NCBI GenBank assembly: GCA_030430575.1
Contig: JAUIKF010000047.1
Location: 1-64,000, forward strand
Source: Bacteroidia bacterium
GTDB taxonomy: Bacteria > Bacteroidota > Bacteroidia > J057
Length of the DNA: 64,000 nucleotides
Direction: 5' to 3'
In this document: piece by piece, positions 54,855-60,031 of the stretch
Layout of the letters: every line of letters starts with the position of its first letter
Position numbering within the stretch: the first letter of the stretch is position 1
Position numbers and translations under genes: made by a program
Notes under the pieces: generated by a model
The model's database searches: none
What the model saw: only the letters and a program-made list of their open reading frames with translations
What the model was told of the DNA's origin: nothing

Positions 54855-56036
54855 ATGAAACAATTACCCCTAATTATCATCCTATTTTTACCCCTAATCA
54901 CCCCTGCCCAATCTTTCGATGACATTACTTTTTTAGATGCCAATTGGATTGAATGTCTCCCCGATACAGCGACTTATTATCGCTTAGAACAGAGAGAAGG
55001 AAAGCTGAACCGTATCGGTATTTATTATCGAAAAAATGATCAGCTTGAAATTCAGTGGACTGAGACTCGCGGGAAGTCGCCTGTACTTGCAGGACAAGAG
55101 CAGCAGTATTTTGAAAATGGAAAACCCAAACAATTTACCCAGTACAGTATGGGGAAGAAAAACGGCCAGGAAGTTTGCTTTCATGAAAATGGGCAGCTTC
55201 ATATCAAGAGGAAATTTATAGAAAATGTACTTATTGGAGAGGAGAAAATGTGGTATGAAAATGGGCAAAAGAAGAAAGAATCCATTTGGGCAAATGGGGT
55301 AGAAAAAGTGCAAAATATCTGGCTAAAAAATGGCAATCAGATAGTCATTGAGGGAACGGGAGCGTATATTGACACTACCTTTCTCTCAACTCAGCATGGA
55401 GAGGATACCCTGATTACGACAGGGCAGTATGAAGCGGGATACCAAACGGGTTTTTGGAAGAGAATTTATGGCAATGATCAAGTTGTTTGGCAGGGTCACT
55501 ACGTCAATCAGAAGCGAGAGGGGCTTTGGGAGGCTTGGTATAAGGATGGACAGAAGATGCAGGTAAAGACTTTCGAAAATGGAACCCCAAAAGGGACGGA
55601 GATTTTTTGGTATCCCAATGGAAAAAAGGCATTTGAATTTGCCTATAATGATGGAATTCCTGTACATCGAACGACCTTTTTCCCTGATGGAGGCATAGAA
55701 TCCCAGCAAAAGGGAACACCCAAATGGGGGCCTGAAGGGTGGGATAGTTTTGGGGAATTGGAACCCTTGCCGCTCAATCTGGAAGCCATCAAGGAAAAAA
55801 TAGGGTACCCTGAAATCGCTAAAGATGCAGGCATTCAAGGAACCGTCATCGTTCGTGCCTTGGTCACGCGTGAAGGGACGGTAAAGCGTTATAAGATTAT
55901 CCGAAAAGTGCACCCTATCTTAGCAGATGCAGTGAGTAGGCAGATCCTATTTCTTTATTTTGCTCCTGCGATATGTGACGGAGTTTCTGTTCCCTTTTGG
56001 GTAGAAATTCCCTTTAAATTTAAGTTGATTAATTAA
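54855..56036 (+). CDS. Secreted MORN/YwqK-like protein with TonB-C domain
   Basis: This 393-residue protein has a signal peptide (MKQLPLIIILFLPLITPAQ). The middle (about 75-290) has MORN/YwqK-type repeats: YFENGKPKQFTQY, CFHENGQLHIKRKF, MWYENGQKKKES, AWYKDGQKMQVKTF and FWYPNGKKAFEFAY. The last 75 residues match TonB C-terminal domains: YPEIAKDAGIQGTVIVRALV and VSVPFWVEIPFKFK. There is no separate membrane anchor. It is first in an operon with three more genes; the next frame begins right after its stop, in the same reading frame. Confidence 0.8.
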   Translation: MKQLPLIIILFLPLITPAQSFDDITFLDANWIECLPDTATYYRLEQREGKLNRIGIYYRKNDQLEIQWTETRGKSPVLAGQEQQYFENGKPKQFTQYSMGKKNGQEVCFHENGQLHIKRKFIENVLIGEEKMWYENGQKKKESIWANGVEKVQNIWLKNGNQIVIEGTGAYIDTTFLSTQHGEDTLITTGQYEAGYQTGFWKRIYGNDQVVWQGHYVNQKREGLWEAWYKDGQKMQVKTFENGTPKGTEIFWYPNGKKAFEFAYNDGIPVHRTTFFPDGGIESQQKGTPKWGPEGWDSFGELEPLPLNLEAIKEKIGYPEIAKDAGIQGTVIVRALVTREGTVKRYKIIRKVHPILADAVSRQILFLYFAPAICDGVSVPFWVEIPFKFKLIN

Positions 56037-56084
56037 TTACAGACAATTGCCCCGATTATTACCGCTTCTAATTCAAAATTCATC

Positions 56085-56939
56085 ATTCTTCATTCAAAAT
56101 TCAACATTCTCTTTCTCCTCCTCCTCGTATCCTGCGAGCCTGACAGCCTACACATTGAGTTGGACCGCCCGCTCACCAAGACAAAGCGCTACTATGTATC
56201 GCCAGACTTTCGGCCTTTTTATCGCGAATCCGAACAGCCAGGCTTGATTTGGGGCGGCGATGTCCAGTACAAAGGGCAGTCCTTTCGCATCGGTCTTTAT
56301 GACCTCAATAGCAATGGCATCTTCAATGACATCGGTCAAGACGTGCTCATCTTAGCCCCATTTGAAGCTGATACCTTTCGGCTGCTGCCCTTTAGCAGCG
56401 CGAATTATCTGGACACCGTCAATACCATTTCCGTAGGCAAATTTCGCTTTCAAGTTGATGCCCTTTCACCAGAAGGCCATTGGATAGAGATGCACCCCAT
56501 TATACCAGACACCACGACGCCCACCGTTTATATACCAGACCATTTACCCGAACTCACAGTAGAATTGATTTCGGGCAAAAAACTCCCTAGCGATAGCCTG
56601 CTCCATCCAGGCAAATACCTGTATGTGGAGCTATTCAGTACCTGGCACCAAAATTCCTTTGAGGCGACGCCTACCCTCAAGCGCACCTACGACCGCTATC
56701 AGGACCGATTGGACATCCTGAGCCTGGTCGTCAATGAGGTAGACTATAGCCGTGTCACGCGCCATATCGCGCAGCACGACCTTCCTTGGAATTTTGGTAT
56801 CTACACCCTAGACTTCGGCATATCGATGATGCACCTGGGCTATGTGCCCTATGGCGCGCTCTACGCGCCCGACGGAAAGTTGATCAAGGCAGGACTCCAG
56901 CCTTGGGAATTGCGGAGATTTTTAGAAATTTTGATGTAA
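56085..56939 (+). CDS. Lipoprotein with redoxin-like C-terminal domain lacking CxxC; no canonical start codon
   Basis: The frame is open from the TAA at 56034-56036 to 56939, but the first ATG, GTG or TTG is a TTG at 56160. The codons before it read ILFLLLLVSC, a perfect lipoprotein signal and lipobox, so the true start must be upstream. I propose the ATT at 56085 (or ATC at 56082), giving about 284 residues and the N-terminus ILHSKFNILFLLLLVSCEP. The C-terminal 130 residues resemble a redoxin domain, but the place for WCxxC reads STWHQNSFEATP. The next gene starts 3 bp after its stop. Readthrough from the upstream gene cannot be ruled out. Confidence 0.65.
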   Translation: MLHSKFNILFLLLLVSCEPDSLHIELDRPLTKTKRYYVSPDFRPFYRESEQPGLIWGGDVQYKGQSFRIGLYDLNSNGIFNDIGQDVLILAPFEADTFRLLPFSSANYLDTVNTISVGKFRFQVDALSPEGHWIEMHPIIPDTTTPTVYIPDHLPELTVELISGKKLPSDSLLHPGKYLYVELFSTWHQNSFEATPTLKRTYDRYQDRLDILSLVVNEVDYSRVTRHIAQHDLPWNFGIYTLDFGISMMHLGYVPYGALYAPDGKLIKAGLQPWELRRFLEILM

Positions 56940-56942
56940 CTC

Positions 56943-58106
56943 ATGAAAAGCACTATTTTTATTTCCCTCCTGCTCAGCCTCTGCTGGCAGTGGGGCATCG
57001 CCCAATACGACGCAGTTGTATTCGACTACGAACTCAACTACTTCAACAACGGTCAGCCATTGCCCGCCGAGTCTCACATGCTCTTTTCAGGCGGTGTCGC
57101 CCTGAATATAGACCGAGTGGAAGTGGGCGTCTATCGTTCCAAATCCAGTTACCAGCAAGGCGCCCTATATTCTGCCAGTTGGAAGCGGGTTCCCGGTTCT
57201 GAAGTGGAAACCTTTAAAGTCCCCTTTCATTACAAGCTCCATGGGAATAATGACTACGACATCCAGATCGCCTTTTTTCGAGTTGTAACATTAGCCGAAA
57301 AAACGGCCTTGAGAAATCGCATCAAAGATGCCGTAGGCACCTATATCGACCAAAATGTGGTCATCCACCCCCATGAAGTCCTATTGGGACGGAATCCCCA
57401 TCAGATGGGAACGGATTTAAATACCATTGTCGCCAATAGCCTGGCGCCCTATCGAGCCACCAATGAACTCACATTTGAGGTTTTTTCTGATGTCGTAAAG
57501 GGAGAACTTCGCTCCCTCGACGCCAAGCAATCCCCCAAGACGCTGTCGGTAGATAGCAGTTTTGAGACGACGATGAAAAATCGAAAAGAAGCCCTGAAAC
57601 GTCAAGTCATCTCTGAACTAGAACCCCTCTTGCAGTCCGAGTTGCTCGTGAAAGTGGACTTGCGCACCGTTCGGGATTATCCCACGGAGCGGATGCGGAC
57701 TGCTTTTGCACTGAATGCAGGGTATGGAGGCGTATATTTGGGCGGAAAAGCAGAGACATTTACCTATGCGGAAAGCTTCTATCTGGGCCTTTCGCTTCCG
57801 TTGAGTAGTCGGATATTTTCGGGAAATATTCTGGGCAATACATCCCTTTCTATTGGCGCATTCCTCAAAAATTTTAAAGACGATATGGACCAGGAATTTT
57901 CAGGCCCTTTATTGGGCAGACCTTACTATATTGGGGCAGGGTATAGCCTGTTTCGCTTTGTGCGGTTCAATGCAGGCGTTACGGTGTTGGAAGAACTCGA
58001 CACGTCGGGCAATGGCTCCATCGATGTGGGAGCAATCATGCTCAAGCCATTTGTAGGCATCAGCGCCGACATTCACCTATCTATTGGATTAAGAGATAAT
58101 CGATAA
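56943..58106 (+). CDS. Secreted protein of unknown function with barrel-like C-terminus
   Basis: This 387-residue protein has a signal peptide ending WGIAQ. The first 170 residues form a mixed domain with YELNYFNNGQPLPAESHMLF. A charged helical stretch (about 200-235) follows, and the final 130 residues alternate aromatic and small residues (AFALNAGYGGVYLGGKAETF, GISADIHLSIGLRDNR), which suggests outer-membrane strands. No named family is recognised. Its stop overlaps the next start as TAATG, so it is translationally coupled to the patatin-CorA gene. Confidence 0.7.
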   Translation: MKSTIFISLLLSLCWQWGIAQYDAVVFDYELNYFNNGQPLPAESHMLFSGGVALNIDRVEVGVYRSKSSYQQGALYSASWKRVPGSEVETFKVPFHYKLHGNNDYDIQIAFFRVVTLAEKTALRNRIKDAVGTYIDQNVVIHPHEVLLGRNPHQMGTDLNTIVANSLAPYRATNELTFEVFSDVVKGELRSLDAKQSPKTLSVDSSFETTMKNRKEALKRQVISELEPLLQSELLVKVDLRTVRDYPTERMRTAFALNAGYGGVYLGGKAETFTYAESFYLGLSLPLSSRIFSGNILGNTSLSIGAFLKNFKDDMDQEFSGPLLGRPYYIGAGYSLFRFVRFNAGVTVLEELDTSGNGSIDVGAIMLKPFVGISADIHLSIGLRDNR

Positions 58107-60031
58107 TGAGCAAAAAAATAGGCATAGCCCTTTCTGGTGGTGGGGCACGAGGTATAGCCCATATAGGCGTCTTGCAGGCGCTGGAAGAGAATGGAATCTC
58201 TCCGGACTATATTTCAGGTACCAGTGCGGGCTCCTTGGTAGGCGTTCTCTACGCAGCAGGGCATTCGCCGAAGGAGATTTTGGAGATTGTGAAAAACACT
58301 TCTTTGCTCAAAATCTTCAAACCCGTGCTTTCTGTCACGAGCTATACGGGCCTTACAGATGCAGGCACACTGAAGGAAATCCTGTCCGATTATATCCCTG
58401 AAGACCGGTTTGGGGCATTGGGTAAAAAGTTCTTTGTCTGTGTCTCCAACCTCAGCAAAGGCCAATATGAGATTTATAGCCAGGGACCCCTAATGGACTG
58501 GGTGGTAGCCTCCTGTTCCATCCCCGTGCTATTTCGCTCCCGTCTCCTCAATGAGGAGACCTATGTAGATGGAGGGCTCCTCAATAACTTGCCCGTAGAG
58601 CCACTAGTGGCTCAATGTGACCATGTCATCGGCGTCAATGTGACGCCGATCAGTAGGGAAGAAGATCTCAGCAATCTGCTGAAAGTAGGTTACAGGAGCC
58701 TCGACCTCGCCATGTGGGCCAATGTCGAGCCACGGCTCCATCAATGTGAGGTAGTCATCCAGCCAGAAGGCGATGACTACGGCCTCTTTGACCTCGGCAA
58801 AGCCGATGAAATCTTTGCCCTTGGCTACCAAGCTGCCCTGCGCCAACTCCCCAACCTCAAAAAACTGATGGAATCCCAATCTCCTTCCCCTAAGCCCAAG
58901 CGGGCCAACGAATCCCTGGTCGGAAAAATGTTGAATAAGAGCGGAAGGCTTCGCTTCAATAAAACCAGGAACACCCAAGAGGCTTCTCAAGCAGATACCG
59001 TTTTCATGCCGCCAGGGACTTTGTTTTATGTAGGAAAAAAGCAGGTGGGAGAAAGCTTAGTAAGCCTCATCAGCTATAATGATAGGCGATTGGAAGAGAA
59101 AGGCATTATTCCCATCAGTCAAGTGGCAGAAGCCGTGAAAAGCGATGAAGTCAGTTGGGTAAATGTAGATGGCGTCCATGATGTCACGTCTATCGAGGCC
59201 ATCGCGCGGCAGCTAGGCCTGCACCCCCTCACGGCAGAAGACATCGTCCAGACCGAGGAACGCCCCAAAGTAGAGGCACATGAAAGCTATTTATACCTGA
59301 TCATCAAAATGCTAACCTTTGATCCGCATCAAAACATGATTGACGTAGAGCAAGTCAGTTTGGTGGTAGGAAAGGGCTTTGTGGTGTCATTTCAAGAGAA
59401 AAAGGAAGATGTGCTGGAGCCGCTACGCGAGCGCCTGCGCAATGCCACTGGCAGGGTGCGAAAGCTAGGCGAAGATTACCTCTTTTTTGCCATTATTGAC
59501 CTGATTGTTAGCCAATACTTTGTGGTGGTTCAGGCCATGGATGAACGGATAGAACGGCTGGAAGCACGCCTCAGCCTGGATTCAGGCAATGCCTTGCTGG
59601 CAGAGATACAGGACCTCAAAAAAGGCATATTTTTCCTCAAAAAGGCCATTTCTCCGCTCCGGACAGCCCTCAATGAACTCCTCAATGGAGACCATGACCT
59701 GATCCGCCCCAAAACCCTTCCCTACTTCAAGGACCTTGAAGGCCAAGTCTTAGAAGTCCTCGAACAGTTTGACAACCAGCGCAATATTCTCGATACCCTC
59801 AAGGACCAGTTCATCTCCCTCAGCGGCCACCGCGCCAATGAGATCATGAAGGTCCTCACCATCATGGCGACCATTTTTATTCCCCTTACCTTCATCACAG
59901 GACTCTATGGAATGAATTTCGACCACATGCCCGAACTCCACTGGAAGTACGGCTATTTCATGGTACTGGGAATTATCGTTGTAGCCAGTTTGAGCTTGCT
60001 GTGGTATTTTCGGAGAAAGCGGTGGCTTTAA
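58106..60031 (+). CDS. Patatin-like phospholipase fused to a CorA-type divalent cation channel
   Basis: One frame of 641 residues carries two complete domains. Residues 1-260 are a RssA/patatin-like phospholipase: IALSGGGARGIAHIGVLQAL for the oxyanion hole, GTSAG with nucleophile Ser40, and Asp155 in VDGGLLNNLPVEPL. A basic, Ser/Pro-rich linker spans about 261-300. From MPPGTLFYVGKKQVG onward the sequence is a full CorA-type protein with long helices (about 440-580), two C-terminal membrane spans and the GMN selectivity motif at 602-604, ending YFRRKRWL. An internal ATG at 58928 (Met275) could also give a separate channel of 367 residues. It is last of a four-gene operon. Confidence 0.9.
   Translation: MSKKIGIALSGGGARGIAHIGVLQALEENGISPDYISGTSAGSLVGVLYAAGHSPKEILEIVKNTSLLKIFKPVLSVTSYTGLTDAGTLKEILSDYIPEDRFGALGKKFFVCVSNLSKGQYEIYSQGPLMDWVVASCSIPVLFRSRLLNEETYVDGGLLNNLPVEPLVAQCDHVIGVNVTPISREEDLSNLLKVGYRSLDLAMWANVEPRLHQCEVVIQPEGDDYGLFDLGKADEIFALGYQAALRQLPNLKKLMESQSPSPKPKRANESLVGKMLNKSGRLRFNKTRNTQEASQADTVFMPPGTLFYVGKKQVGESLVSLISYNDRRLEEKGIIPISQVAEAVKSDEVSWVNVDGVHDVTSIEAIARQLGLHPLTAEDIVQTEERPKVEAHESYLYLIIKMLTFDPHQNMIDVEQVSLVVGKGFVVSFQEKKEDVLEPLRERLRNATGRVRKLGEDYLFFAIIDLIVSQYFVVVQAMDERIERLEARLSLDSGNALLAEIQDLKKGIFFLKKAISPLRTALNELLNGDHDLIRPKTLPYFKDLEGQVLEVLEQFDNQRNILDTLKDQFISLSGHRANEIMKVLTIMATIFIPLTFITGLYGMNFDHMPELHWKYGYFMVLGIIVVASLSLLWYFRRKRWL

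Follow-up and report, generated by a model that had tools for sequence, protein, structure and literature searches.

The window is the whole stretch of DNA analysed here, 64,000 nucleotides long. It carries a gene in which a patatin-type lipase and a CorA-type channel share one reading frame, located behind a gene for a 387-aa protein. The features of this locus are given below with the evidence for each.

56943–58106, + strand: upstream gene, 387 aa, with no Pfam match (ORF; a homologue lies directly upstream of the fusion in genome G001)
58106–60031, + strand: patatin-CorA fusion gene, 641 aa (ORF; also fused in G001, L002:1486-3444)
58124–58606, + strand: patatin domain (PF01734), residues 7–167 (Pfam, E=1.4e-38)
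58136–58153, + strand: oxyanion/anion-binding motif GGGARG, residues 11–16 (motif reading and alignment)
58217–58231, + strand: nucleophile elbow GTSAG, residues 38–42, with Ser40 (motif reading and alignment)
58568–58576, + strand: DGG, residues 155–157, with the catalytic Asp155 (motif reading and alignment)
58883–58993, + strand: basic low-confidence linker, about residues 260–296 (pLDDT, alignment with G001)
58994–60028, + strand: complete CorA, about residues 297–641 (Pfam, TIGR00383, TmCorA match, fold)
59144–60016, + strand: PF01544 domain, residues 347–637 (Pfam, E=4.1e-71)
59240–59242, + strand: Asp379, equivalent to TmCorA Asp89 of the M1 magnesium site (alignment with TmCorA chains, native and D89K/D253K)
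59732–59734, + strand: Asp543, equivalent to TmCorA Asp253 of the M1 magnesium site (same alignment)
59903–59938, + strand: pore-entrance signature LYGMNFDHMPEL between the membrane spans (GMN at 59909–59917)

The fusion frame opens with an ATG at 58106 and runs through 641 codons to 60031 on the + strand with no internal stops, as the initial annotation had described. The Pfam scan orders the protein as an N-terminal patatin, a basic linker, and a complete canonical CorA. Both domains score far over their cut-offs and are nearly full length (PF01734, model positions 1–190 of 191; PF01544, 2–292 of 292). The domain search suggested in the initial annotation returns the two families in the order it had claimed. 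The junction truncates neither domain.

The 387-aa gene and the start of the fusion overlap by one base (TAATG). At 54855–58106 the window encodes a MORN/TonB_C protein, a thioredoxin-like protein (assigned by eye), and the 387-aa protein. The order is the same in G001, another genome from this genus, in which the fusion lies behind a homologue of the 387-aa gene and two further genes look alike in order and sequence. These genes may form an operon with the fusion. AT-rich repeats of the type AATTCAAAATTCA occupy positions 56040–56150, ahead of the thioredoxin-like gene, and a lipoprotein-like start (VSCEP) for this gene can be read upstream of its listed TTG start. A Por_Secre_tail domain is also present within the window and, together with the closest relatives in the CorA tree, suggests that the DNA is from Bacteroidota. 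Promoter and terminator sites found by scanning are no more numerous than in shuffled sequences.

Patatins are defined by the motifs G-G-G-x-[K/R]-G, G-x-S-x-G, and D-G-[A/G] with a Ser-Asp dyad (PMC9095652), and the patatin half of the fusion has the full set, including the dyad. GGGARG, Ser40, Asp155, and, in the CorA half, the GMN at residues 602–604 are all found where they had been reported from the letters of the sequence. The active-site motifs are kept in the alignment of patatin relatives, and G11, G12, R15, and G16 are invariant among the two fusions and their closer patatin relatives. The PF01734 score is 133.4 bits against a cut-off of 27.7. The patatin fold reaches about residue 256, and its first strand begins right at the start of the protein, without a signal peptide. 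When this domain is modelled alone, a mean pLDDT of 90.6 and a pTM of 0.90 are obtained. The best PDB match of the model is PlpD (5fya/5fqu, TM 0.79–0.85), followed by CapV, CapE, and plant patatin. Against the RssA equivalog model NF007623 the patatin half scores 83.7 bits, below the cut-off of 272.

The CorA half scores 271.6 bits against a cut-off of 200.75 with the TIGR00383 equivalog (model positions 3–320 of 320) and matches Thermotoga maritima CorA (TmCorA) at 1.4e-80 across residues 292–641. Its fold aligns to TmCorA chains with TM values of 0.79–0.94, and TmCorA accounts for every one of the top 50 PDB matches. The Asp89/Asp253 pair, to which Asp379 and Asp543 correspond, comprises the residues altered in PDB entries 5jtg and 5jrw. 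The CorA signature YGMNFxxMPEL (PMC9276622) is located at residues 601–611, flanked by spans at about 580–601 and 616–637, and the C-terminal helices of CorA are present in the AlphaFold2 model. Pfam, TIGR00383, and the signature thus agree with the initial reading of a whole CorA with two C-terminal spans and GMN. Neither the genome of the window (G000) nor G001 has a CorA besides the fusion, while each has one MgtE and one or two further patatins. With the fusion as the sole CorA in both genomes, losing the channel could carry a cost if MgtE does not cover for it.

The same profile searches bear on the idea that the protein is a membrane-attacking defence effector, composed of a patatin like those of CBASS and a CorA like those of CRISPR systems. 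PADLOC models of CBASS phospholipases match the protein at 3.5e-15 and those of CRISPR CorA weakly, at 2.4e-5, and type III CRISPR systems include CorA effectors that are joined to an enzyme, NrN (PMC10600005). However, CRISPR CorA proteins have diverged and possess a unique fold at the N-terminus (PMC10600005), whereas the CorA half of the fusion is a canonical transporter over the TIGR00383 cut-off. The patatin half reaches only 56.3 of the 200 bits required by the CBASS phospholipase effector model NF041079, and its nearest structure is PlpD. The neighbours examined are ordinary (OMP decarboxylase, CofH/MqnC-like, TonB/MORN, and AnmK), and no cyclase/CD-NTase or Cas gene was recognised among the neighbouring genes scanned, which are part of the genes of the window. 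We regard a role in defence as highly improbable.

The two domains are joined by a region (residues 256–300) with nine Lys/Arg against four Asp/Glu, in keeping with the basic linker noted initially. The full chain was modelled with AlphaFold2 as a monomer, from a checked alignment of 36 sequences, giving two folded domains and a disordered linker with a mean pLDDT of 89.8 and a pTM of 0.56. Low-confidence stretches are confined to residues 265–280 and 287–291 in the linker and 76–79 in a patatin loop, and block mean pLDDT values across residues 261–300 are 40–74. At this pTM the model gives no confident fixed placement of the patatin relative to CorA.

In G001 a fusion of the same order is found (L002:1486-3444), with 652 aa, 55% identity, and no stops. 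Identity between the two proteins is 63% in the patatin core, 51% in the patatin end, 27% in the linker, 41% in the CorA N-terminal edge, 57% in the CorA cytosolic part, and 65% in the membrane part. Base differences at codon positions 1/2/3 are 0.36/0.20/0.64 in the patatin, 0.34/0.22/0.58 in CorA, and 0.53/0.51/0.69 in the linker. The third-position excess in both domains suggests that patatin and CorA are under protein-level selection. The linker contains a 9-aa indel that is in frame, and the interdomain frame is kept though the linker sequence is not.

The comparison with G001 is also what decides whether two adjacent genes have been joined by an assembly or sequencing artefact. The assembly is a draft of 127 contigs, and an apparent case of such a join occurs elsewhere, between a phosphoketolase and CorA (L135). 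But G001 is independent and has the same fusion with the same neighbour gene, which makes a sequencing error very unlikely, and the junction leaves both domains whole. The frameshift or stop between residues 260 and 300 in a related genome that the initial annotation had named as its refutation is absent from the G001 fusion. An artefact is therefore scarcely credible, and the patatin-CorA fusion is real and is one gene.

A different question is whether the halves act together at all. They could be independent, perhaps through a cut in the linker or an internal start, in which case equal supply would be the sole meaning of their joint expression. The linker is flexible and fast-changing, and usable starts exist at Met275 and Met301 in the window gene and at Met293 in G001. 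On the other hand, the frame has stayed open in two genomes at 45% protein divergence, and the internal Met positions differ between the two fusions. The channel starting at Met275 that had been put forward as an alternative retains a possible start codon in the window, but the position is not kept in G001, where Met293 is the nearest. Joint expression alone is an improbable explanation.

The origin of the fusion can be approached through the other genera of the same family. In five of their genomes (G003, G004, G006, G007, and G010) the closest patatin has a gene to itself, split across two contigs in G010, and these single patatins adjoin a gene for a thioredoxin-like lipoprotein (from Pfam matches of one such neighbour). 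In the CorA tree the fused pair forms one clade (support 100), which is joined by the unfused CorA genes of G002 and G010 (support 99). The patatin tree is weakly resolved and places the fused patatins with the single ones of the family, no finer. In G002 the CorA gene lies behind a universal-stress-protein-like gene (assigned by eye). Two genomes from further genera in the family, G005 and G007, have MgtE but lack any CorA match. Since patatin and CorA are separate in the other genera, the fusion is a genus-level event. In those other genera the homologues of the 387-aa gene are on different contigs than the patatins, so the operon too looks genus-specific.

Three of the five single patatin orthologues have basic amphipathic C-terminal tails. 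The single patatins at L005, L011, and L124 (G004, G007, and G010) end with KNFWRRMRTSFLGVF, LRRFSKKIGDFFRNL, and WARLWARLRRWWQRL. Judged from sequence, these tails could be weak, peripheral membrane anchors that were replaced by an integral one in the fusion. Their presence in three of five orthologues weakly suggests that membrane contact mattered before the fusion. Against such a precursor, G003 and G006 lack the tails, and a search for an amphipathic remnant in the linkers of both fusions found segments that are not significantly amphipathic.

A third fusion was not found among 40 relatives at E<=1e-3 or in searches of the family and order; in 395 genomes of the class or among the matches listed from 395 genomes of the phylum; in 390 genomes of a neighbouring order and nine of another; among the best 80 of 590 confirmed loci in GTDB contigs; or in 1036 plasmid records with a match. 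The large genome searches covered strong matches only (E<=1e-55 to 1e-93) and the GTDB contig scan was queried with peptides of the window fusion itself, so that a distant fusion of independent origin could have escaped and these results demonstrate rarity, not uniqueness. Elsewhere, nine long open frames surrounding CorA were read out, and none contains a patatin. G009 and G012 encode patatin proteins of roughly 600 aa, which were considered as fusions and rejected, since their N-terminus is cyclic-nucleotide-binding-like (by eye), not CorA. Named hits in a viral fold library are either patatins or CorA proteins, and not one of them spans both halves. At L135:401-3991 (G424) a 1197-aa frame contains a phosphoketolase broken off within XFP_C and then a full CorA; this is probably a frameshift, not a fusion. 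The literature searched describes neither the patatin-CorA order nor any CorA that carries a lipase, consistent with the earlier remark that no named family with this order was known. The protein combines two known families in a rare and apparently undescribed architecture.

In CorA the N-terminus is cytosolic, as seen in TmCorA structures. Together with the lack of a signal peptide, this implies that the lipase would be intracellular, next to the inner membrane. The cytosolic-face position proposed in the initial annotation stands to this extent, as a deduction from the missing signal peptide and the TmCorA topology. The reading we favour, and hold to be probable, is a genus-specific fusion that puts a PlpD/RssA-like lipase ahead of a working CorA, so that the lipase is pentamer-tethered and clustered on the cytosolic side. 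The two CorA spans would insert the protein with its N-terminus in the cytosol, and the protein would assemble as a CorA pentamer. Up to five lipases would then hang from the cytosolic side of the inner membrane, each on a flexible linker of roughly 35 residues and held beside its phospholipid or lysophospholipid substrate. CorA would retain its role in magnesium uptake, and the chief effect on the lipase would be permanent membrane localisation and clustering. The gene structure, the conserved domains with their key residues, and the separate genes of the sister genera are observations; we infer the pentamer, the topology, an active lipase, and tethering as the chief outcome. Solved patatin relatives such as CapV form dimers or filaments, however, and a five-fold scaffold may not fit them simply.

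A stronger coupling can also be imagined, in which the opening and closing of CorA alters the spacing or exposure of the five patatins, thereby switching the lipase and tying magnesium status to membrane lipid turnover. The M1-site aspartates are conserved, and closed, magnesium-bound CorA is a symmetric pentamer that becomes asymmetric in the open, low-magnesium state, according to PMC6927688. Ligand-driven assembly also switches other bacterial patatins (PDB entries of CapV and CapE filaments). However, the linker is predicted to be disordered and is unconserved, and the domain arrangement is not confident; these observations mildly favour tethering over allosteric control. A review describes the way in which magnesium acts in CorA gating as unsettled (PMC9276622), which makes prediction from CorA alone uncertain. 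We consider a magnesium-gated lipase rather unlikely. The same estimate applies to a prokaryotic channel-enzyme whose CorA pentamer would sense cytosolic magnesium and directly switch a ring of phospholipases, so that divalent-cation status and membrane lipid remodelling would be coupled.

Compared with known systems, the fusion resembles TmCorA and TIGR00383 proteins over the whole length of its CorA half (YGMNFxxMPEL, the M1 aspartates, the basic RRKRWL C-terminus, and TM up to 0.94), but adds a 260-residue enzyme and a linker at the CorA N-terminus. It shares the fold (TM 0.79–0.85 to PlpD), GGGxRG, GxSxG, and DGG with the PlpD/RssA-type patatins. PlpD is a secreted lipase joined to POTRA and an Omp85-type barrel, and RssA is a single-domain protein, whereas the partner in the fusion is an inner-membrane channel. 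NrN-CorA of type III CRISPR systems likewise joins a soluble enzyme to a CorA-type membrane protein, but with another enzyme, a divergent CorA, and a CRISPR setting (PMC10600005). In Dechloromonas and Magnetospirillum a long CorA has an MgtE-like N-terminus, also a module added to CorA, although one that is transport-related and not an enzyme (PMC9276622). The existence of NrN-CorA and MgtE-CorA indicates that CorA accepts extra modules. To our knowledge, patatin-CorA has no sequence kinship with the channel-kinases TRPM6 and TRPM7, which are animal proteins with a kinase, not a lipase. By analogy only, these also combine an enzyme and a magnesium-permeable channel in one chain (PMC4276914 and PMC7252442).

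Should the two halves work jointly, magnesium homeostasis and phospholipid turnover would be naturally linked in one protein, and the fusion would be a simple bacterial channel-enzyme for study. A tether alone would still be a natural experiment, with the lipase free in sister genera and membrane-fixed here, and the pair of free and tethered patatins would allow the effect of localisation on patatin function to be compared directly.
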